DNA of 54,155 bases from Candidatus Frankia nodulisporulans (GTDB taxonomy: Bacteria > Actinomycetota > Actinomycetes > Frankiales > Frankiaceae): positions 1 to 54,155 of the forward strand of contig NZ_CADCWS010000006.1 in NCBI RefSeq assembly GCF_902806475.1, given 5' to 3'. Below, piece by piece: positions 15,849 through 29,826 of the stretch. Numbering within the stretch: the first letter of the stretch is position 1; each line of letters begins with the position of its first letter. The position numbers and the translations under genes were made by a program. Below the pieces are notes generated by a model. It had not been told where the DNA came from. It saw only the letters and a list, made by a program, of their open reading frames with translations, and did not search any database.

Positions 15849-17087
15849 GTGGATTCCCAAGCCGCGAACAGCGGAGTCTCCGGCGACGTGGCCAGCACCG
15901 CTGATGGTGAGAGGGGCGGCGAACCCGGTGGTGGCCTCGCCGGCCCGGGCGCCACGGGGCGCGGGCCGGGGGGCGTGCCGGCCGTCCCGGTGCTGGATGG
16001 GGTGGCGATGGCGGCCGCCGTCGCCCGGCAGGGGCAGCTGACCAAGCCGCCGGGGGCGTTGGGGCGCCTCGAGGAGCTGTCGGTCTGGATCGCCGGGGTG
16101 CAGGGGGTGTGCCCGCCGCGGGCGTTCGCGCGGGTGCGGGCCGTGATCGTCGCGGCCGATCACGGTATCGCCAGTGTGGGTGTGTCGGCGTTTCCCAGCG
16201 ATGTGACCGCCCAGATGGTGGCGAACTTCGCCGCGGGCGGGGCGGCGGTCAACGTGCTCGCCCGGCAGGTCGGTGCCGAGGTGCGGGTGGTGGATGTCGC
16301 GGTCGACACCCCGGAGCCGGCCACCCCGGGCGGGGTCGACGGCAGCGCGCCGCCGGGGCGTTACCGGGTCCGGCGGGCGAGTGACCGGATCGACCGGGCG
16401 GACGCGCTCAGCGTCGAGGAGGGGGAGCGGGCCTTCGACATCGGGCGCATGATCGCCGACGAGGAGGTCGATGCCGGCGCCGATCTGCTGGTGCCCGGCG
16501 AGATGGGGATCGGGAACACGACGCCGGCGGCCGCGGTCGTCGCACTGCTGACGGGGCGGGAGCCGATCGAGGTCGTCGGGCGCGGCACCGGTATCGATGA
16601 CGCGCGGTGGATGGTGAAGACCGCGGCGATCCGGGATGCGATGCGCCGTGGCCGGCCGTTCGCCGACGACGCGCACACGGTGCTGCGCGTCGCCGGCGGT
16701 GCGGATCTGATGGCGCTCGCCGGCCTGCTGGTGCAGGCGGCGGTGCGGCGCACCCCGGTGGTGCTCGACGGGGTGATCGTCTGCGCGGCGGCGCTGGCGG
16801 CCGAGCACATCGCGCCGGGGGCGAAGAACTGGTGGGTCGCCGGCACCCGCTCGCCGGAACCAGCCCAGGCCCACGCGCTGGGCGCGCTCGGGCTCACCCC
16901 GCTGCTCGACGTCGGGCTGCGCCTAGGCGAGGGCACCGGCGCGCTGCTGGCCGTCCCGCTGGTGCGGGCGGCGCAGGCGACGCTCGCCGAGATGGCCACC
17001 TTCGATCAGGCGGGGGTGAGCGGGAAGGCCGGGTCGGATGGGGCGGCTGGCTCCGGCGAGCACCCGCGGGAGCTCGACGCCACGTGA
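15849..17087 (+). CDS. cobT: nicotinate-nucleotide--dimethylbenzimidazole phosphoribosyltransferase
   Basis: Makes alpha-ribazole 5'-phosphate for the lower ligand of cobalamin. It is 412 residues; the first 45 are a Gly/Ala-rich extension and the family core begins at about [31 protein letters not shown]. The [19 protein letters not shown] block and the [13 protein letters not shown] segment with the catalytic Glu are intact. The [23 protein letters not shown] and the late [15 protein letters not shown] blocks follow. It overlaps cobS by 4 bp (GTGA), so the two form an operon. Confidence 0.95.
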
Positions 17088-17962
17088 CGGTCGCCCTGCG
17101 GACGGCCTTCTCGCTGCTGACCGTCGCACCGGTGCGCGGGCCGGCGCGGCTCGACCGGCGCGTCGCCGGCCGGGCGATGGCCCTGGCTCCGCTGGTGGGG
17201 CTCGTGCTGGGAGTGGTCGCCGCGCTGGTGGTCTTCGGCCTGCGGGTCTCGACGGGCATGCCGGGCAGTCGCACGCAGACGCTGCTGCCCGCCGTGGCGG
17301 GTGTCGCGGCGCTGGCGCTGGCCACCCGCGGCCTGCACCTGGACGGTCTGGCCGATCTGGCGGACGGGCTCGGGGCCCGGCACGCCGGCGGTCGGGAGCG
17401 GGCGCTGGCGGTGATGCGTGAGCCGACCATCGGCGCCTTCGGCGTGGTGGCCGTGCTGTTCGTGGTGCTGTTGCAGGTCACCGCGCTCGGCGCGGCGATC
17501 ACGGTGCACCGGGGCACCGTGTCGATGCTGGTCGCGGTGATGACCGGGCGGCTCGCGGTGACCCTCGCCTGCGCCAGTTCCGCACCCGCCGCGCATCCGA
17601 ACGGTCTCGGCGCGTTCGTGGCCGGTTCGGTCCGGACCCGCGACGCGCTGGTGGCTTTTGTCGGGGTGTGCGCGGTGGCGGCCCTCGCCGGGCGGTTCGA
17701 CTACGACGGTGGTGATCTCGAGCGGGCCGCCCGCGCGGTGATCGCGGTGTGTGTCGGGGCCGCGGTCTCGGTGGCGCTGCGGTACTACTTCGTCCGCCGG
17801 CTCGGCGGGCTGACCGGGGATGTCCTGGGCGGCCTCGTCGAACTCACCACCGTGGTGACGCTGCTGTTCATGGCGATGACCTATCCGGACTGGCTGCTGC
17901 ACCTGGTAGGCTCCGACGCGGGTTCGTCCGGGCCACCGGGCTGGCCAGGCCGCCCACGGTGA
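17084..17962 (+). CDS. cobS: adenosylcobinamide-GDP ribazoletransferase (cobalamin synthase)
   Basis: A polytopic membrane enzyme joining AdoCbi-GDP with alpha-ribazole(-P) to give cobalamin(-P). The 292-residue protein starts at the GTG overlapping the cobT stop. The hallmark [17 protein letters not shown] with its Asp cluster is near residue 82. Hydrophobic segments are spread over the length, for example [20 protein letters not shown] and [20 protein letters not shown]. The C-terminal [18 protein letters not shown] block is typical of CobS. In other actinobacteria cobU is usually contiguous; here a 4.2-kb STAND gene intervenes. Confidence 0.95.
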
Positions 17963-18044
17963 TCATGGCGCTCCGAGGTGTGGTGCTCGGAGCGGACGCT
18001 CGCCGGATGTGCGCGCGATGGTGACGGTGACGGTGGGAATCGGA

Positions 18045-18050
18045 TACGTT
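18045..18050 (+). promoter_or_regulatory. -10 hexamer TACGTT, leaderless start of the STAND gene
   Basis: TACGTT ends 7 nt before GTG 18058. This favours that start over the ATG at 18145 and gives the STAND gene its own promoter, separate from cobTS. Confidence 0.5.
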
Positions 18051-18057
18051 TCGGGTT

Positions 18058-21000
18058 GTGTCGGTATCGGCTGATGCGTCGCCTGGTCGCAGGTCGGGCT
18101 CGCGGTCACCGGCCGGGCCGGCGCGGCGGCCGATCGGTGCGACGATGGGTGGGCCGGGCGAGGGGATCGCCCGGCGGGTGTTCCTGAGCCACACCGCCGA
18201 GCTGCGGGGCTTTCCGCGGGAGCGGTCGTTCGTCGCGGCGGCCGAGCGGGCGGTGGCGCTCGCCGGAGACCAGGTCATCGACATGGAGTACTTCGGTGCC
18301 CGCGACGCCGACCCGGCCGAGTTCTGCGTGCGGGCGGTGCGGTCGTCCGATGTCTACCTGGGGCTTATCGCCTTTCGGTACGGCACCACCGTCCCGGGGC
18401 AGGCGCAGGTGTCGTACACCGAGCTCGAGTTCGACACCGCGACCGCGGCGGGGATACCGCGGCTGGTGTTCCTGCTGGACTACCACGCCGAGGTTCCCTT
18501 CGGTGACTTCGTCGACGAGGCTCACGCCGAACGGCAACGGGCCTTCCGCGCGCGGCTGCGGGAGTCCGGCATCATCACCGCCGGTTTCCGTGACGCCGGG
18601 GAGCTGGAGACCGCCGTCCTGGACGCGCTGGTCAAGCTGCGCGAGGCCGAACGGCGAGCCGCGGTGGCCGTGACCGCCGACATCGCCGCCACGACCAGCA
18701 CCGGGGCGTCCACGGAGGCGATGGTCGCCGCACGTCCACCGGCGCCCTGGATGGTGCCGGTCCTGCCGGACGGGTTCGTTCCCCGTCCGGCCCTGGCCGC
18801 GGCCGTGCTCGCCGAACTGCGGCCGGGCGCCGGGCCGGTCGTGCTGCACGGCACCGGCGGGATCGGCAAGACGACCCTGGCCCGGGAGGTCTGCCAGCGG
18901 GTGGAGATCGCGCCCCGGTTTCCCGGTGGGCTGCTGTGGGTGACGGTGGGTGAGTCGCTGCGCGGGGCGCAGCTCGCCGACCGGATCAACGATCTCAGCG
19001 AGGCCCTGGCCGGTGTGCGCCCGACCCTGTCCGATCCCGAACAGGCCGGCTTCCACCTGGGCACCCTGCTCGCCGGCGACGCCCGCCTGCTCGTCATCGA
19101 CGACGTGTGGAGCCGCGACCAGGTGGAGCCGTTCCTCCAGGGCGGCCCGAACACGATGCGGCTGGTCACCACCCGGCTTCGTGACGTTCTGCCCCGCTGC
19201 CGCATGATCGAGATCCCGGCGATGCGCAGGGCCGAGGCCATGGCGCTGCTGCTGCGTGACCTGCCCCCCGGGTCGCTGCCCACCGGCACGTCCACCGGCG
19301 GCGCTGTGGTGCTGGACGGCCCGGTGGTGGTGGACAGCGCTCTGGCCGAGGGAGCCGAACGGCTGCTGGCGCACACCGGACGCTGGCCGGTGCTGCTCAG
19401 CCTCGTCAACCGGGCCCTCGTGCGCTATGTGCGCGACGGCATGAGCCCGGCCCGCGCCGTCGAACGGGTGCGCCGTCGGATGGAACGCCGCGGCCCCACC
19501 GGCCTGGACGTCACCCGGGCGGGGCAGCGCGCCGAAGCCGTCGAGGTGACCCTGGCGGCGAGCCTTGACCTGCTCACCGGCCATCGCCTACAGCGCTACC
19601 TGGAGCTCGCGGTCTTCCCCGAGGACGTCGAGGTGCCCCGCGCGATCCTGGACGTCTACTGGGGACGCACCGGAGACCTTGATCCGGACGAGGTCGACGA
19701 TCTGTGCCAGGAACTCGCCGATCTGTCCCTGGTCGTCACCTACCGGCGGGCCCCCGCCGCGTTGCTGCTCCAGGATGTGCTGCGCAGCTACCTGCGGGTT
19801 CGGGTCGGCGTGCCCCGGCTCGCCGAACTCGAGGCCGTTCTGTGCGACGCGTTGCGCGACGCGCACCTCCCGTCGGCGCGTGAGAGCGGCGATCCGTGGT
19901 GGTTGCTGCCGGCCTCCGCCAGCTACGCCTGGACGTACCTGGTGGGGCATCTCCTCGGCGCGGGACGGGTCGACGCGGCGGGTGGCGCTGCTGGGGGATC
20001 TGCGTTGGACGCTGGCCAAACTGGAACGCCCGCAGCTGGGACCGGTGGCACTCGAGGCCGACCTCGCCCTCGCCGCGGCCGCCCGCCCGGGCGATCCCCG
20101 GCTCGAGGCACTGCACCGGGTGATCCGGCAGAACGCCCATCTGCTCTCACCCACCGACCCACCGGCGTTCCTCGGCGCGATCCTGCTCAGCCGCCTGGAC
20201 GGAAGCCCCGAGCTCGCCGCCGCCCGCCGCGCCCTGGCCCGCCATGTGCCCCCCCCCGGCTGACCGGCCGCTGGCCCCGACCCGACCAGCCGCATCCCGC
20301 GTTGCGGCGCACCCTGGTCGGCCATCGGCGCACGATCGGGGGACTCGCGGCCGCCGCGGGCAGCGGCCTGCTCGCCTCCGCCGGTACCGATGGCACCGTG
20401 CGGCTCTGGCAGGTCCCCGATGGTCCGGGCCGCCGGGTGCTGCGCGGTCACACCGGGGCGGTTCACGCCTGCGCCCTGTCCCCGGACGGCACCCTGGTCG
20501 CCTCCGCCGGCGCCGACGGCACCGTCCGGCTGTGGCCGGTTCCCCCCACCTGGGACGACGCGCCACCCCTGGCCACCGACGTCGCCGAGGAGAGCGACGC
20601 CGCTGGGGAGACCGAGGCCGCTGGCGCCGACGGTTCGTCCGCTGGGCTGCGGGTGCTGCGGGGCCCGGCCGGGGCGGTCACCGACTGCGCGTTCACACCC
20701 GACGGGCAGCGGATTCTCGCGGTGGGTGTGGACGGGGTGCTGCGCTGCTGGCAGGTGCGCGACGGCGCGGTCGTGTTCACCGTGGCGGTCACCGACGCGC
20801 CGCTGCGGTGCTGCCTGGCGGCCGAACACGGCCGCTGGATCGCGGTCGCGGGTGACGACGGTATCGTGCGGATCTGCGACCCGAGGACCGGCCGTCCGAA
20901 CGCGCGGCTGGTCGGCCACACCGGCACGGTGTTGTCGCTGACCGCGCCCCCGGACGGCACCTGGGTCGGCTCGTCCGGCGCCGACGGCACCTTCCGCCGC

Positions 21001-22251
21001 TGGACGAACGACCCGGACCCCACGCGGACCGCGTCCGGCGACCGGTCGCCGTCCAGGGGCTGGCGGGAGGTGTGGATGATCCGTGAGCAGGCCGGGGCGA
21101 TCCGCGCCGCCGCGGTCGGACGGGACGGGAACCTGCTGGTCACGACGAGCTGGGAGGGCGCGGTCCGCCTGTGGGATGTCCGCGGCGGAGCACACCGCGT
21201 GGATCTGACCGGGGCGATCGGCAGCCGCCACTGCGTCCTGTCCCCGGACGGAAGCTGGGTGGCGGCCTCGGGTCGCTACGGGACGATCCGGCTGTGGTCC
21301 ACCGAGGTCGACCTGCCCCGGCCGTCCGCCACCGGGCGTGAGCACCAGATGCGTGGCGCCGCTGTCGTGCGTATCCGCCCCACCCCGACCTCCGACCTCT
21401 CGGACGACCCCGCCTCCACCGGGGAACGGGGCCGGCCGGGGGTCGTGACCTACACCGATGGTGGCAACACCGCTGTCTGGGATCTGGAGACCGGCGAGCC
21501 GACCGGGGTGACGTTGGCCGGTCACGTCGACATGATCCGTGGTGCCGGGGCCGCGCCGAACGGATCCTGGGTGGTCGTGCCGGGCAGCCTCGCCGCCCTG
21601 CGCCGCGTCGACCCGGCCACCGGAGCCGTGCTTTCCACGATGACCGCGACCACCGAGATCAAGGCGTTCGCCGTTGCTCCCAGCGGCACCTGGATCGCCG
21701 CCAGCTGCGCTGATGGCACCCTGCAACGCTGGGACGCGATCAGTGTACGGCCACTGTCGGCGGCCCTGCCCGCGCATGTGGGAATGGCGGTGGCCTGCGC
21801 GGTGAGCCCGGACGGCCGCTGGATCGCCACCGGCGGCGAGGACCGCCTCGTCCGGCTGTGGACCACCGCCCTGGTCTGCCACCGGACGCTCTCGGGCCAC
21901 CTGGACACCGTGCTCGGCGCGGACTTCGCCCCCGACAGCCGGCTGCTCGCGACCGCCGGCGCCGACCACACGGTGCGCATCTGGCGGCTGGACGACGGCG
22001 ATCCCGTCGCGACGCTGACCGGCCACAACCACACCGTGCGCGACGCCCGGTTCTCCCCGGACGGCTCCCTGCTGGCCACCGCCGGCGGCGACGGCGCGTT
22101 GTGGATCTGGGACGCGGCCAGCTGGCGGCCGGTGACCATGATGCGCTTCGACGGCGCCGCCCGCTCCTGCGCCTGGCTGCCCGCCGACCTCGGCCACGGC
22201 ATCATCGTCGCGAGCTCCGCCGGCCTGTTCCGCTACGACTACGAGCCCTGA
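18058..22251 (+). CDS. DUF4062-NB-ARC-WD40 STAND ATPase, with two apparent compensating frameshifts
   Basis: A 1397-codon frame. Residues 40-195 form a DUF4062 (TIR-like) domain: VFLSHTAELRG, SSDVYLGLIAFRYGT and VSYTELEFDTATAAG. Residues 240-500 form an NB-ARC ATPase with P-loop HGTGGIGKTTLA at 264-275, Walker B LLVIDDVW at 344-351, sensor-like MRLVTTRLRD and GRWPVLLSLV. A helical region follows, then about 14 WD40 blades (from 20310) with repeated GHT..V and DGTVRLW motifs, enough for two propellers. Between about 19980 and 20257 the conserved-looking coding sequence is in the +2 frame (GDLRWTLAKLE ... AARRALARHV). The annotated frame there is a Pro/Arg-rich shadow that happens to stay open. 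An extra G in GGG 19980-19982 and a missing C in C9 20249-20257 would explain this. STAND proteins sense ligands and oligomerise to fire an effector, so an anti-phage or cell-suicide role is plausible but unproven. Confidence 0.85.
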   Translation: MSVSADASPGRRSGSRSPAGPARRPIGATMGGPGEGIARRVFLSHTAELRGFPRERSFVAAAERAVALAGDQVIDMEYFGARDADPAEFCVRAVRSSDVYLGLIAFRYGTTVPGQAQVSYTELEFDTATAAGIPRLVFLLDYHAEVPFGDFVDEAHAERQRAFRARLRESGIITAGFRDAGELETAVLDALVKLREAERRAAVAVTADIAATTSTGASTEAMVAARPPAPWMVPVLPDGFVPRPALAAAVLAELRPGAGPVVLHGTGGIGKTTLAREVCQRVEIAPRFPGGLLWVTVGESLRGAQLADRINDLSEALAGVRPTLSDPEQAGFHLGTLLAGDARLLVIDDVWSRDQVEPFLQGGPNTMRLVTTRLRDVLPRCRMIEIPAMRRAEAMALLLRDLPPGSLPTGTSTGGAVVLDGPVVVDSALAEGAERLLAHTGRWPVLLSLVNRALVRYVRDGMSPARAVERVRRRMERRGPTGLDVTRAGQRAEAVEVTLAASLDLLTGHRLQRYLELAVFPEDVEVPRAILDVYWGRTGDLDPDEVDDLCQELADLSLVVTYRRAPAALLLQDVLRSYLRVRVGVPRLAELEAVLCDALRDAHLPSARESGDPWWLLPASASYAWTYLVGHLLGAGRVDAAGGAAGGSALDAGQTGTPAAGTGGTRGRPRPRRGRPPGRSPARGTAPGDPAERPSALTHRPTGVPRRDPAQPPGRKPRARRRPPRPGPPCAPPRLTGRWPRPDQPHPALRRTLVGHRRTIGGLAAAAGSGLLASAGTDGTVRLWQVPDGPGRRVLRGHTGAVHACALSPDGTLVASAGADGTVRLWPVPPTWDDAPPLATDVAEESDAAGETEAAGADGSSAGLRVLRGPAGAVTDCAFTPDGQRILAVGVDGVLRCWQVRDGAVVFTVAVTDAPLRCCLAAEHGRWIAVAGDDGIVRICDPRTGRPNARLVGHTGTVLSLTAPPDGTWVGSSGADGTFRRWTNDPDPTRTASGDRSPSRGWREVWMIREQAGAIRAAAVGRDGNLLVTTSWEGAVRLWDVRGGAHRVDLTGAIGSRHCVLSPDGSWVAASGRYGTIRLWSTEVDLPRPSATGREHQMRGAAVVRIRPTPTSDLSDDPASTGERGRPGVVTYTDGGNTAVWDLETGEPTGVTLAGHVDMIRGAGAAPNGSWVVVPGSLAALRRVDPATGAVLSTMTATTEIKAFAVAPSGTWIAASCADGTLQRWDAISVRPLSAALPAHVGMAVACAVSPDGRWIATGGEDRLVRLWTTALVCHRTLSGHLDTVLGADFAPDSRLLATAGADHTVRIWRLDDGDPVATLTGHNHTVRDARFSPDGSLLATAGGDGALWIWDAASWRPVTMMRFDGAARSCAWLPADLGHGIIVASSAGLFRYDYEP

Positions 22252-22345: not shown

Positions 22346-23800
22346 CTAGGGCCGCAGGGGGACGGCGATGCCGGCGATGACCTGGCACACCTCGTCGGAG
22401 GCGGCGGCGAGTGCGGCGTTGGCCCGTCCGAGGGCATCGCGGAAACGCCGTCCGGCGGGCGTCGCCGGGACGACGCCGGAGCCGACCTCGTCCGAGACCG
22501 CCACCACCCGCCTCGCGGTGTTGCGCCACGCCTCGACCAGCTCCGCCGTGCGTGCCTCGAGCCCATCGCCGTCCGGCGAGGCCGGTGTGTCCGGCGGATC
22601 CAGATGGGCGGCGATCCACAGGCCGATACCGTCGATGAGCAGCGGGGGACCATCCGTGCTCAGCAGGCCGACCAGATCGAGGGACTCCACCGTGGTCCAG
22701 GCCGCGGGCCGGCGGGCCTGGTGCGCCGCGATCCGGGCCGACCACTCGGCGTCGGAGGCGTCCGCCGGTGCGGAGGTCGCGACGTACACCACCGCCGGTT
22801 CGCCCAGCAGCCGCCGCTCGGCCTCGGCCGACTTCCCCGACCGGGCGCCACCGAGCACCAGCGTCCGCCTCGGCACCACCGCCGCGGTGGGGCGGGGGCC
22901 GGGGGTGATGTCGAGGGATTCGCCGTCGTGGGGGGCGCGGGCGCCGACATGGGCGAGGCGGCGGGCCAGTTCGTCGCCGGGCGGATTGCGGTGACTCAGG
23001 TGGACGGCGAGGATCTCGGTGCCCTGGTGGATCGCGCCCCGGCGACGCAGTTCGCCGACGAGCTCGCCGAAGGTGTCCAGGCCGAGGTGTTCGCCGAAGC
23101 CAGGCCGGTCGCCGTTGTTCTCCTCGAGCGCCACCACGTCGTACGCCCGGTCCACGACCGCGTCCAGGGTGCTGGCGGGCAGGGGCACGGCGGTGTCGCA
23201 GCCGTAGAGCAACCGGGTGCCATCCGGTGCGGTGATGTCGTAGAGGACGGCGGGGCCGATACTGGCGTCGCCATGGTGGGCGGCGAGCGGGCGCACCTCG
23301 TACCGCGCCCCGGCCTCACCCAGCCACAGCGTCCCGCCGGCCGTGCCAGTCCCGCCGGCCTCACCCGTCCGGTCGGGTTCGGCCGGTCCGGCTGGCACGG
23401 CCTCGAGGAAACGCAGCGGGTTGCCCTCGCGGTCGGGGTCGCTGCCCTCCCAGCGGGCCAGGAAGGCGCGGCACACCTCGAGCGCCGCCGGCGGCGCGAC
23501 GACGTCCAGGGGTCGTCCGGCCGCCGTCGACCAGGAGCGCCACATCAGGCTCTCGGGGCCGAGATGGTCCGGATGGGCGTGGCCGACCAGCAGGTGGCGC
23601 AGCCCGGACAGGCGTACCCCGAACCGGGCCGCGGCCCGGGGCACGTCCGGCCCGCAGTCGACGAGCAGCACGTCGTCGACGAGGATCGCGGTCTGACCGC
23701 GGACCACGCCGCCACCGCGCGCCCAGGTGCAGGACGCGCAGTCACACCACGGGTTCGGCCAGCCGTCCGCGGAGCCGGTGCCGAGCAGCCTCAGCCGCAT
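22346..23800 (-). CDS. cobU: metallo-beta-lactamase-fold / CobU fusion (adenosylcobinamide kinase-guanylyltransferase)
   Basis: A 484-residue two-domain protein. Residues 1-300 are an MBL-fold hydrolase of the PhnP-like kind: GTGSADGWPNPWCDCASC near 7, with a zinc-binding Cys cluster, and the metal motif HAHPDH near 74. Further candidate ligands are AHHGD, GCDTAVPL and VHLSHRN. After a short linker, residues 315-484 are CobU: P-loop LGGARSGKS, RIAAHQARRP with the GMP-accepting His, LLIDGIGLWIAAHL and DEVGSGVVPATPAGRRFRDALG. CobU phosphorylates and guanylylates adenosylcobinamide. The MBL part may be a phosphatase or phosphodiesterase of the same pathway, for example on alpha-ribazole phosphate; that is inference. 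It is convergent with the STAND gene. Confidence 0.9.
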   Translation of the reverse strand: MRLRLLGTGSADGWPNPWCDCASCTWARGGGVVRGQTAILVDDVLLVDCGPDVPRAAARFGVRLSGLRHLLVGHAHPDHLGPESLMWRSWSTAAGRPLDVVAPPAALEVCRAFLARWEGSDPDREGNPLRFLEAVPAGPAEPDRTGEAGGTGTAGGTLWLGEAGARYEVRPLAAHHGDASIGPAVLYDITAPDGTRLLYGCDTAVPLPASTLDAVVDRAYDVVALEENNGDRPGFGEHLGLDTFGELVGELRRRGAIHQGTEILAVHLSHRNPPGDELARRLAHVGARAPHDGESLDITPGPRPTAAVVPRRTLVLGGARSGKSAEAERRLLGEPAVVYVATSAPADASDAEWSARIAAHQARRPAAWTTVESLDLVGLLSTDGPPLLIDGIGLWIAAHLDPPDTPASPDGDGLEARTAELVEAWRNTARRVVAVSDEVGSGVVPATPAGRRFRDALGRANAALAAASDEVCQVIAGIAVPLRP

Positions 23801-27276: not shown

Positions 27277-27885
27277 CTACGGCGTGGGGTTGGCGCGGGA
27301 GACGCGCGGGCGGGGCAGGCGCCAACGGCGCGGCAGCAGGGCGCGCTGGGCGGCGTAGGCGCGCACCCGCACCCGGGAGTCGGGGTAGCGGGCGGTGACC
27401 CGCCTGCTGGCCTGCCAGGACAGCAGGACCGAGTCGACCACCACCGCGACGATGCCGACCAGCATCAGCAGCGTCGCGGCCAGCCGGATGGCCCCGACGG
27501 GGATCAGCCCACCGACGAAGTAGATGACCGCGGCGATCAGGAAGAACGGGCCGACGTTGATCCGGGTGTCGACGTAGTCGCGGGCCAGCACCCGCTCGGG
27601 GGCGCGCTCACGCGGTGGCAGCCGGCTGACGTCCCCGGACATCATCGCCGAGCGGTAGTCCTGGCTCTGCTTGCGCCGGGCGGCCCGGGCCTCCTGCTTG
27701 TTCGCCGGCTTCTTCGCGGTCGAGACCGTCTGCGTGCGGGCGGCCCGGGCGGCCGAGCGCTTGGGCGTCGGACGGCCCTTGCCGCCCGAGCGGCGCGGGT
27801 CGTCGTCGGCCAGCTGCTCGTCGAGGACCGCCGGGGCGTCGGACAGGTCGGGATCGGCGCCCCCACGGCGCTTGAGCAGGGCCAT
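27277..27885 (-). CDS. DUF3043 membrane protein
   Basis: A 202-residue actinobacterial DUF3043 protein, function unknown. The first 90 residues are basic and charged (KRSAARAARTQTVSTAKKPANKQEARAARRKQ is the family-like stretch, at about 42-73), with MMSGDVSRLPPRERAPERVLARDYVD after it. Two membrane segments follow at about 112-130 and 134-154, and then a basic C-terminal tail. ATG 27885 shares one base with the nadA stop (TGATG), so translation is coupled to nadA. The operon link gives no firm functional clue. Confidence 0.85.
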   Translation of the reverse strand: MALLKRRGGADPDLSDAPAVLDEQLADDDPRRSGGKGRPTPKRSAARAARTQTVSTAKKPANKQEARAARRKQSQDYRSAMMSGDVSRLPPRERAPERVLARDYVDTRINVGPFFLIAAVIYFVGGLIPVGAIRLAATLLMLVGIVAVVVDSVLLSWQASRRVTARYPDSRVRVRAYAAQRALLPRRWRLPRPRVSRANPTP

Positions 27886-29192
27886 CAGGGCAGAGCCAAC
27901 ATCTGATCGAGTGCCTTCCGAGCAGGGGTGGCCACGTCCGGGTCGACCGTGATCTGGTTCGGCGTCTCCCCGCGGACGAGGGACTCCAGCGCCCAGACGA
28001 GATGCGGCATGTCGATCCGGTTCATGGTGGAGCAGAAACACACCGTACGGTCCAGGAACACAATCGTCTTGTCGGGGTGGCGGGTGGAAAGCCGCCGCAC
28101 GAGGTTCAGCTCGGTGCCGATGGCGAACGCGCTGCCGGGGGGCGCGGCGTCGACGGCGGCGATGATGTACTCGGTCGAGCCGACCAGATCCGCCGCGGTC
28201 ACCACCTCACGGCGGCACTCCGGGTGCACCAGCACGGTGACACCGGGCACCCGGGCGCGTACCTCGTCCACGCTCTGCCTGGTGAAGCGCCCGTGCACCG
28301 AGCAGTGGCCGCGCCACAGGATCATCTTCGCGTCGCGCAGCTGGGCCTGGCTGAGCCCGCCGCGGGGGCGCCGCGGGTCGTAGACGACGCAGTCGGCCTC
28401 GGTCATCCCGAGTTCGGCGATCGCGGTGTTGCGCCCGAGGTGCTGGTCGGGCAGGAACAGCACCCGCTCGCCGCCGCGTGCGCCGAAGGCCCACTCCAGT
28501 GCCCGTCGTGCGTTCGAGGACGTGCAGATGGTGCCGTCGTGACGGCCGGTGAACGCCTTGATCGCGGCCGAGGAGTTCATGTAGCTCACCGGCACGGTGG
28601 TGGCCTCGACTCCGGCGTCGGCCAGGTCGTCCCAGGCCTGTTCGACCTGCTCGGCGGTGGCCATGTCGGCCATCGAGCAGCCCGCGGCCAGGTCCGGCAG
28701 GATCACCTTCTGGTGCGGACCGGTGAGGATGTCGGCGCTTTCGGCCATGAAGTGCACACCGCAGAAGATGATCGCCCCGGCCTCGGGGCGGGCCGCGGCG
28801 AGCTGGGCGAGTTTGAACGAGTCGCCGGTGACGTCGGCGAACGCGATCACCTCGTCGCGCTGGTAGTGGTGCCCGAGGATGAACACCCTCTCCCCGAGGG
28901 TGGCCTTCGCGGCGGCGGCCCGGGCGGCGAGGCCCGGGTCCGCGGCCGGCGGCAGGTCACCCGGGCAGTCGACACCGCGCTCGCTGGCCGGATCCGCGCC
29001 GCGCCCCAGCAGCAGCAGTGCCAGGGGTGACGGGGCGGTACCCACCGCCGCGAGACCAGGATCCGGGCTCGGGTTCGGCCCTGGGCTCGGCGCCTGGTTC
29101 GGGTTCGGCCCCGGCCCCGGCCCCGGGTTCGGGTGGACGAGGGCGGACGGCGTGCGGGACGGGTTGTGCTCGAGGGCCGGGTTGATGGTCAT
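27885..29192 (-). CDS. nadA: quinolinate synthase A
   Basis: A [4Fe-4S] enzyme that condenses iminoaspartate with dihydroxyacetone phosphate to quinolinate for NAD synthesis. The 435-residue protein begins with about 45 residues of a PNPGPGPGPNP-type low-complexity tail, then the catalytic part: GHHYQRDEVIAFADVTGDS near 107. Cluster cysteines are in IIFCGVHFMAES, VHPECRREVV and VCFCSTMNRID. The SYMNSSAAIKAF and FLPDQHLGRNTA blocks bind substrate. ATG 29192 follows GGAGGA. No nadB or nadC is adjacent. The Pro-Gly tail is coded by an imperfect tandem repeat at about 29060-29140. Confidence 0.95.
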   Translation of the reverse strand: MTINPALEHNPSRTPSALVHPNPGPGPGPNPNQAPSPGPNPSPDPGLAAVGTAPSPLALLLLGRGADPASERGVDCPGDLPPAADPGLAARAAAAKATLGERVFILGHHYQRDEVIAFADVTGDSFKLAQLAAARPEAGAIIFCGVHFMAESADILTGPHQKVILPDLAAGCSMADMATAEQVEQAWDDLADAGVEATTVPVSYMNSSAAIKAFTGRHDGTICTSSNARRALEWAFGARGGERVLFLPDQHLGRNTAIAELGMTEADCVVYDPRRPRGGLSQAQLRDAKMILWRGHCSVHGRFTRQSVDEVRARVPGVTVLVHPECRREVVTAADLVGSTEYIIAAVDAAPPGSAFAIGTELNLVRRLSTRHPDKTIVFLDRTVCFCSTMNRIDMPHLVWALESLVRGETPNQITVDPDVATPARKALDQMLALP

Positions 29193-29826
29193 GACACTCC
29201 TCCGGTCGGCCGGTCCGTGAGCCTGGCCGCCTGTCATGTGTGCCGGCCGGCCAGCGCACCCGCCGGGGCCGTCCGCGAATGGTCGATGAGACTCTAACTC
29301 CCCTGGGCGTCATCGTATGCGCGGATGTGGTGTCTCGGGGGCGACTCGTCGTGGGGGTCACCGAGCGGCGGTCGCGGCTCGGCGGGGCCCCGCCCGCGCG
29401 GGTGCCAGCCGGTCTCCCGGGGCGGTGTTCGCCCCCCTGTGGCGCGTGATGTCCCACGTCGCAGGGGTCAAGGCGCCGGTCTGCCCCCGCTGGTGGGCCA
29501 GGTGTCCCGCGGCCATGGGCCGGGTGGGTAACCACCGAGGACATAACCCAAGGTGACGGGGGTCTCGTGGTGGACCGGATCGTGCCGTGGTCGGTCCTGC
29601 TCGGTCTCGCTACCATGGGAAGCGGATCCCGTCCGATGGTGTTGGGCATGGATGTCGGCGCACTGGCTGTGCCGTGTCCGGGGCGTCTGCCGGGAGTGGA
29701 GGCGTCGCGGGCAGTACCGCAAGCGACACCTGACCGGAAAGCGACCGACCGGAAACGCACTACCCGACCGGAACCAGTGGCCCGGCCCCGCCAGGCCACA
29801 TCACAGCATGGGCAGGAGAAGTCTCT
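29193..29826. other. 634-bp intergenic region upstream of erpA and nadA
   Basis: A divergent control region with no supported gene. Short frames inside it have atypical composition. Visible elements are a small palindrome GGTTACC-like dyad near 29526 and three copies of GACCGGAA (29732, 29747, 29766). The erpA ribosome-binding site AGGAG lies just before 29827. Confidence 0.5.
29732..29773. repeat. three direct GACCGGAA repeats upstream of erpA
   Basis: GACCGGAAA at 29732-29740 and 29747-29755, then GACCGGAAC at 29766-29774, spaced 15 and 19 bp. They may be regulator half-sites for the iron-sulfur gene downstream; this is speculative. Confidence 0.4.

Follow-up and report, generated by a model that had tools for sequence, protein, structure and literature searches.

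A DUF4062, NB-ARC and WD40 protein with the anatomy of an NLR-type receptor, encoded beside cobT in Frankiaceae

Gene and domain architecture

The window, by which we mean the whole 54,155-nucleotide stretch of DNA analysed, belongs to a draft genome (86% complete, 609 contigs) of the soil bacterium Frankia. Between the cobT and cobS genes on one side and a cobU fusion on the other, it carries a gene for a large STAND protein, and the neighbours named in the initial annotation were recovered with Pfam (Table 1). The architecture proposed there was likewise recovered: a DUF4062 domain at residues 40-128 (E 9.5e-14, 51.8 bits vs a Pfam cut-off of 24.7), an NB-ARC domain at residues 256-380 (E 1.2e-13, 52.7 bits vs 23.5) and C-terminal WD40 repeats, in which 14 blades were counted by eye on the aligned C-terminal part. 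The P-loop (GTGGIGKTT) and Walker B (LLVIDDVW) motifs are both present, as annotated, and the ATPase is of the NB-ARC rather than the NACHT type, the latter scoring 18.1 bits against a cut-off of 26.7. PF21296 gives a weak match to an APAF-1-like winged helix at residues 514-561 (E 4.2e-5, 24.1 bits vs a cut-off of 27), and this region is also the second of the stretches matched to APAF-1 by phmmer.

Table 1. Features of the STAND gene and its neighbours, in window coordinates
Feature	Position	Strand	Basis or detail
cobT, neighbour	15849..17087	+	PF02277
cobS, neighbour	17087..17962	+	PF02654
Leaderless-type promoter element ATCGGATACGTT	18039..18050	+	-10-like TACGTT ending 7 bases 5' of the GTG
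DUF4062/NB-ARC/WD40 STAND gene as read	18058..22251	+	One open frame, 1397 aa, GTG start
TIR/nucleoside-glycosidase-type head (predicted)	18169..18690	+	Pfam DUF4062 core 18175-18441; AlphaFold2 model; structure matches listed
Glu122 codon, putatively catalytic	18421..18423	+	Alignment to KpSwz SFTEKAF motif; conservation at cob site; position checked
NB-ARC ATPase	18823..19197	+	P-loop 18850-18876, Walker B 19087-19110
APAF-1-like winged-helix region	19597..19740	+	PF21296, sub-cut-off; second stretch of APAF-1 phmmer match
Stretch containing the out-of-frame part; segment continuous in relatives	19957..20259	+	GC frame plot and relatives' proteins
14 WD40 blades, presumed sensor	20260..22248	+	Pfam WD40; blades counted by eye
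MBL-CobU fusion, neighbour	22346..23800	-	PF02283 plus N-terminal metallo-beta-lactamase match

Of the features of STAND AP-ATPases of the APAF-1/NLR class, the protein has P-loop, Walker B, NB-ARC fold, winged helix (sub-cut-off in Pfam) and a C-terminal repeat sensor, here of WD40 repeats. Pfam, phmmer and structure matches support the STAND anatomy suggested in the initial annotation, here of NLR type: a bacterial receptor with the layout of the cell-death receptors of animals and the immune receptors of plants. A structure model of residues 38-633 reached a mean pLDDT of 66.2 and a pTM of 0.42, and its part past about model residue 442, where pLDDT falls below 50, was excluded from interpretation. 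NCBIfam returned for the window protein only two weak matches to TPR proteins, far below cut-off, and none for the R82 orthologue. At E <=0.01, the sole PADLOC match of the protein was HEAT-ARM_XIII; it falls on the WD40 part and is uninformative as to the identity of the system.

The DUF4062 head and its conserved glutamate

Modelled alone with AlphaFold2, the head gave a mean pLDDT of 80.2 and a pTM of 0.82, and among the structure matches listed for the model were proteins of the TIR, NDT, DNPH1 and MilB types, which agrees with the TIR-like fold first proposed and points to a TIR/NDT-type fold. KpSwz and TEP1 are absent from these lists; the library ends in April 2026, so their absence is uninformative. 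Among the matches listed, nucleotide glycosidases fit the head at least as well as TIRs do, an observation against a suicide mechanism based on NAD+ hydrolysis.

The sequence match to KpSwz, a bacterial DUF4062 protein, stops inside the TIR-like head. Within it, Glu122 aligns to the only Glu of the KpSwz SFTEKAF motif, which, judging from the chain numbering, should be the catalytic E97. The initial annotation had proposed a check for a catalytic Glu; this position is Glu in 22 of the 23 cob-site copies, as expected of a DUF4062/TIR-like NADase, and the alignment suggests that Glu122 is the catalytic residue of the head. The remaining copy (G024) has Gln at the putative catalytic position, a point against the suicide receptor preferred below.

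A 2026 preprint describes other DUF4062 proteins as TIR-like NADases, the bacterial ones protecting against phages, and reports that KpSwz and TEP1 convert NAD+ to ADP-ribose and nicotinamide (PMC13174449). The NADase-like effector that had been guessed for the window protein gains strength from this work on its relatives, and the head is probably an NADase, with NAD+ as its likely substrate. The purified human proteins NWD1, NWD2 and NPHP3 contain DUF4062 and showed no NADase activity (PMC13174449); these silent proteins weigh against suicide by NAD+ hydrolysis.

Start signal

The proposal that the gene has its own leaderless promoter is supported. Across the 10 Frankia loci aligned, the 12-mer ATCGGATACGTT does not vary, and the pattern TCGGATACGTT-N4-9-RTG, in which the start codon (RTG) lies 4-9 bases 3' of the element, occurs at the STAND gene in all 11 genomes having the gene among the 13 Frankia genomes searched. 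A reversed control pattern gave one match over the 13 genomes. Two extra matches of the TCGGATACGTT pattern, one in G010 and one in G007, are followed by frames that, counted from the chosen GTG, run for just 19 and 13 codons. A scan of 17850-18200 for sigma-70 -35/-10 elements and terminators found none. Rfam had no match at gathering score over the window, and hence no cobalamin riboswitch was found there.

Distribution, descent and selection

Of 35 Frankiaceae genomes, 24 have the STAND gene at the cob site, next to cobT, cobS or a CobT homologue in every case; it is divergent from cobT in 21 and follows cobS in three. The neighbour in seven of the Pseudofrankia is a homologue of CobT whose motifs are altered. 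The gene is missing from the site in the other 11 genomes, three of which keep relics, so it is dispensable. The position proves to be shared by many relatives but not by all, which falls short of the refutation set in the initial annotation, namely the gene at the same cob position in every relative, with a housekeeping phenotype. One such relic, of the 3' end (62 aa, E 1.6e-9), lies in the near-empty-looking cobU-cobT site of G010. In G027, which retains the CobT homologue, the adjoining sequence shows no remnant of the STAND gene.

The STAND gene tree and the housekeeping tree have 11 of 18 splits in common, against a maximum of three in 1000 label shuffles. The gene follows the genus tree, in agreement with vertical descent at one site. 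The initial annotation had seen an accessory insertion into a core cluster; a recent insertion is rejected, since the G010 relic and the trees are in line with vertical descent and the gene occupies the site in most genomes. The patchy distribution of prokaryotic DUF4062 (PMC13174449) contrasts with this vertical pattern, which counts against the receptor reading given below.

Purifying selection on the head is as strong as that on cobT. The WD40 part changes more rapidly than the head; its dN/dS is well below 1 and thus gives no hint of an intense arms race, which speaks against that same reading. PADLOC gave no matches for 10 window ORFs, and the Pfam-annotated neighbours are mostly housekeeping in look; the lack of a recognisable defence island around the gene is a point against an anti-phage role.

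A disturbed frame in the middle of the gene

Although the gene can be read as one open frame, as first described, the protein so read is not intact. Third-position GC, at 0.85-0.92 in the preceding windows, drops to 0.66 in the 300-base window that begins at 19858 and to 0.61 in the one that begins at 20008. When the proteins of two close relatives are aligned to the DNA, the match runs in one frame as far as 19956, switches to another that starts at 19931 or 19982 and ends at 20248, and returns to the first at 20260, so that about 90-100 residues within 19957-20259 are out of frame. In relatives, the segment is continuous, conserved and helical-looking. The disturbance may reflect either real damage or an error of sequencing or assembly, and it counts against the preferred reading as far as the window's own copy is concerned. 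It is possible, if rather unlikely, that both frame changes are real and this strain's copy is already broken: the GC frame plot and the relatives locate the change, and the relics elsewhere show that the gene does decay. Against this, the second change restores the frame that the first disrupts, the domains on either side share one frame, and an error is plausible in a draft of this completeness and fragmentation.

Discussion

On balance, we consider it probable that the gene encodes a long-resident bacterial NLR-type receptor beside cobT, with a WD40 sensor, NB-ARC assembly and NAD+ hydrolysis, probably for anti-phage suicide; the window strain's copy may be damaged in the middle or wrongly sequenced or assembled. 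The 14-blade WD40 part would keep the protein closed and sense an invader or damage signal. By analogy with APAF-1, ligand binding would lead to nucleotide exchange at the NB-ARC domain and oligomerisation, bringing the TIR-like DUF4062 domains together for NAD+ hydrolysis via Glu122. Loss of NAD+ would kill or stall the cell, most likely stopping the spread of phage along the filament.

The same receptor logic could hold with a head that cleaves another nucleotide, as a MilB/DNPH1-like N-glycosidase, or that makes a signal from NAD+ rather than draining it. This is unlikely, because the head matches an NAD+ hydrolase in sequence and retains its motif, and the products of KpSwz and TEP1 are ADP-ribose and nicotinamide (PMC13174449). 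With much the same low probability, the gene might serve filamentous Frankiaceae as a resident regulator of development or stress death rather than as a phage defence. Its prevalence at one site, the concordant trees and the strong purifying selection on the head fit such a regulator, and NLR-like control of gene-transfer-agent lysis is known in Caulobacter (PMC13236601). Against it stand the absence of the gene from the site in 11 genomes, with relics in three, which marks it as dispensable, and the faster evolution of the WD40 part relative to the head. Quite improbable is a cobalamin-linked sensor acting with the neighbouring cob genes, despite the constant adjacency of cobT, cobS or a CobT homologue and the altered homologue in the seven Pseudofrankia: the gene is mostly divergent from cobT, has its own start signal and no riboswitch in the window, and G027 has the CobT homologue without it.

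Among known systems, the APAF-1, CED-4 and Dark apoptosome proteins carry a CARD head that recruits caspases, whereas the window protein has a TIR-like enzyme in its place. Plant TIR-NLRs (RPP1, RUN1, Roq1) use an LRR sensor, not WD40, and a classic TIR, not DUF4062. Avs/AVAST proteins combine a STAND ATPase, C-terminal repeats and an N-terminal effector, with heads and sensors other than those seen here; PADLOC presumably includes models of Avs proteins, and none matched the window protein at E <=0.01. Bacterial conflict systems are predicted to include TIR-AP-ATPase proteins, partly actinobacterial, which resemble the window protein in joining an NAD+-processing TIR effector to an AP-ATPase; the passages describing them give classic TIR and TPR repeats and do not name DUF4062 (PMC7159879, PMC8195603).

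The effector itself is best known from KpSwz (Swarozyc; PDB 10wc, 11cq, 11cv), an antiphage NADase that has in common with the window protein the TIR-like head with its S-[FY]-T-E motif (PMC13174449). KpSwz senses the phage portal through a winged-helix auxiliary domain, whereas the Frankiaceae protein has NB-ARC, a winged helix and 14 WD40 blades instead, and its gene, unlike KpSwz, is passed down at a core locus. The preprint places in defence islands the five proteins that it tested and about 20% of bacterial homologues (PMC13174449); no such island is recognisable around the window gene. The suggestion of an undescribed system is only partly right now that the effector domain has been characterised; the variant here, on the preferred reading, is its union with NB-ARC, winged helix and 14 WD40 blades in a bacterial NLR-type receptor. 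Against the picture of DUF4062 genes as patchy and horizontally spread in bacteria, this one stands as an exception, seemingly handed down vertically and maintained by selection.

Human NWD1, NWD2 and TEP1 also place DUF4062 beside a STAND ATPase, with WD40 in several, although theirs is a NACHT ATPase, and TEP1 has additional domains and resides in the vault particle (PMC13174449). A bolder and rather doubtful extension is that Frankiaceae possess a resident 'apoptosome', a counterpart of the NWD1/TEP1 layout with a DUF4062 NADase receptor, an APAF-1-like ATPase and a 14-blade WD40 part, inherited vertically since before the split of Frankia, Parafrankia and Pseudofrankia. It would act as a fixed switch for self-death or containment in filaments, not as an exchangeable phage defence, possibly working in Pseudofrankia with a CobT-like partner from which typical CobT motifs have been lost. 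Only in 2026 was DUF4062 established as a TIR-like NADase, from work on a small bacterial protein and on human TEP1, about whose activation the authors speculate (PMC13174449). With a layout close to that of the human proteins, a putative active-site Glu that is strongly conserved and more than 20 natural variants, the bacterial protein could provide a tractable model of large DUF4062-STAND-WD40 receptors.

Architecture and reading frame of the STAND protein

The STAND protein is real and well conserved, and it is a variant within the NLR/TIR-NADase kind rather than a new kind of system; the initial annotation had made it a candidate for an undescribed one. Its anatomy, its predicted fold and the active-site residue of the DUF4062 head (Glu122, putatively catalytic) are firm features, as is the selection acting on it. 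Among ATPases of solved structure, APAF-1 is the closest to it in sequence (E 2.3e-12), and alignment of the C-terminal part gives 14 WD40 blades by eye.

In the window, which belongs to a Frankia draft (86% complete, 609 contigs), all 1397 codons of the STAND ORF are open. Third-position GC falls to 0.66 and 0.61 inside the ORF (intervals from 19858 and 20008, respectively). Aligned to the window, the proteins of its two closest relatives (G001 and G005) run in one frame as far as 19956, continue in a second frame until 20248 and return to the first at 20260. This switch indicates that about 90–100 residues of the window protein are not natural sequence. In both relatives the disturbed stretch is continuous in a single frame. 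Because there are intact copies, conclusions on the family are independent of the window copy.

Features of the window, of the STAND protein and of compared Frankiaceae stretches
Feature	Location	Strand	Remark
cobT	15849-17087	+	
cobS	17087-17962	+	
Inverted cobT-cobS block	15849-17962; L061 (G001); L065 (G005)		
STAND ORF	18058-22251		
DUF4062	residues 40-128		Pfam, above cut-off
NB-ARC	residues 256-380		Pfam, above cut-off
APAF-1-like winged helix	residues 514-561		weak match
WD40 repeats	C-terminal to NB-ARC		Pfam
MBL-CobU fusion	22346-23800	-	
nadA	27885-29237	-	
STAND 3' relic, G010	L087:8440-8840		
STAND remnant, G013	L088:7103-9412		open
STAND remnant, G028	L096:7084-9689		frame-shifted
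Other sequence between cobU and cobT, g3	L089:5570-10879; L092:3811-17015; L093:7739-18538		
CobT homologue, Pseudofrankia	L072, L075, L077, L079, L081, L082, L083, L095		open frames
Second element copy	G010:C1:939180-939200 and G007:C381:2878-2898 (L107, L110)		

Occurrence and descent at the cob site

Gene order was compared in stretches from 35 Frankiaceae genomes, including that of the window. In 24 of them, the STAND gene has cobT, cobS or a CobT homologue as its neighbour: 11/13 Frankia, 4/6 Parafrankia (g2), 7/8 Pseudofrankia (g6), 1/5 in genus g3 and the single g5 genome, with 0/1 in both g4 and g7. It is split across two contigs in G007, and in some drafts a contig border precedes cobU. 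In 21 of these 24 genomes, the gene and cobT are divergently oriented; the window, G001 and G005 carry the cobT-cobS block in inverted orientation relative to the other Frankia examined, which places the gene downstream of cobS there. DUF4062 as such was found in 30 of the 35 Frankiaceae genomes and in only 20 of 269 other genomes of the class (survey of 296 genomes, 27 + 269 as counted from the listing; two of the 20 matches lie under the cut-off). In three g3 genomes, 5–13 kb of other sequence replaces the gene between cobU and cobT. In the window, nadA, which encodes the quinolinate synthase of NAD biosynthesis, is found 5.6 kb past the putative NADase gene.

In a tree of 23 cob-site copies (G007 not included) and 10 paralogue rows, the cob-site copies form a group separate from the paralogues, on a branch supported at 0.997. 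For 21 of these copies, STAND and housekeeping phylogenies from IQ-TREE were compared, G001 and G004 being dropped for too little housekeeping sequence. Frankia, g2 and g6 were each recovered at 100% in both trees, with the pair G016-G020 supported at only 52 and 78. Of 18 splits, 11 occur in both trees and 7 do not; 1000 label shuffles gave 0.23 shared splits on average and 3 at most. The distance matrices are correlated (Mantel r 0.66, 198 pairs, a value reached by 0 of 5000 permutations). The housekeeping row of G002 holds a poor AKR match (37% identity), which probably lengthens its branch.

The 11 genomes without the gene at the cob site were checked for relics. G010, a small Frankia genome, keeps a 62-residue relic of the 3' end between cobU and cobT, and two Parafrankia-group genomes (G013 and G028) have lost DUF4062 and NB-ARC but retain a winged-helix piece together with helical and WD40 parts. 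No relic was detected at E 1e-3 in the stretches of the remaining eight, some of which stop at contig borders.

In eight Pseudofrankia genomes, the CobT homologue at the cob site no longer has certain CobT-typical motifs. In place of LGEGTG, whose Glu is the catalytic base of CobT, seven have DDGTG or a close variant of it and G032 has EDGTG; MGIGNTT is replaced by LGVGADT in every one of the eight. The seven genomes whose main cluster was examined encode a normal CobT elsewhere. The homologue, whose PDB matches include the CobT relatives ArsA and ArsB, is under purifying selection (dN/dS 0.17–0.36 in five pairs, 0.54 for G027 versus G032), and G027 has kept it while lacking the STAND gene at this site.

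Selection and putative function

Across seven Frankia pairs, dN/dS was 0.06–0.14 for the DUF4062 region, 0.09–0.36 for NB-ARC and 0.33–0.52 for the WD40 halves (in one pair the second half comprises just 79 codons). Six of the same pairs gave 0.06–0.14 for cobT, 0.11–0.22 for gcvT and 0.18–0.29 for cobS; constraint on the head is as tight as on core enzymes. The WD40 sensor part is looser yet constrained, so that a fierce arms race is not apparent. In one Pseudofrankia cob-site copy (G024, L077), Gln replaces the putatively catalytic Glu of the head; this copy is possibly a naturally inactive receptor.

DUF4062 has been described as a TIR-like NADase family, in which bacterial KpSwz, activated by phage portal, depletes NAD+ and brings about abortive infection, and human TEP1 is an NADase, purified NWD1, NWD2 and NPHP3 being inactive (Osinski et al., bioRxiv May 2026, PMC13174449). 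The five bacterial proteins tested there were picked for similar auxiliary domains, and their genes lie in defence islands. The portions of that text available describe no bacterial DUF4062-NB-ARC-WD40 protein, while its supplementary figure of co-occurring domains may show such. Earlier computational work linked classic TIR effectors with AP-ATPases within bacterial conflict systems, some actinobacterial (PMC7159879, PMC8195603). Among the papers listed by literature searches, none was on this protein in Frankia, and PMC7159879 mentions Frankia once.

By analogy with APAF-1 and KpSwz, the most likely function is that the WD40 part would sense a trigger, NB-ARC would then assemble and cluster the DUF4062 heads, and the clustered heads would cause loss of NAD+ and cell death or arrest; NAD+ as substrate, the assembly, the trigger and the benefit are what we infer. 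Vertical descent and a mostly housekeeping neighbourhood argue most strongly against an ordinary phage-defence gene.

A conserved element before the start codon

Upstream of the STAND gene, ATCGGATACGTT is invariant in 10 aligned loci, most other upstream DNA being dissimilar, and in the window the GTG start lies 7 bases after it. Such spacing between element and start would point to a leaderless transcript; the initial annotation had proposed a leaderless promoter. Each of the 11 Frankia genomes with the STAND gene has the pattern TCGGATACGTT-N4-9-RTG at this gene; elsewhere in the 13 Frankia genomes there is one further match each in G007 and G010 and none in the rest, and a backwards control pattern gave one match in the 13. 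Five Parafrankia/Pseudofrankia loci carry TANNTT 6–7 bases upstream of a GTG, in frame in all except L030. The second copies in G010 and G007 have alike flanks and precede very short reading frames.
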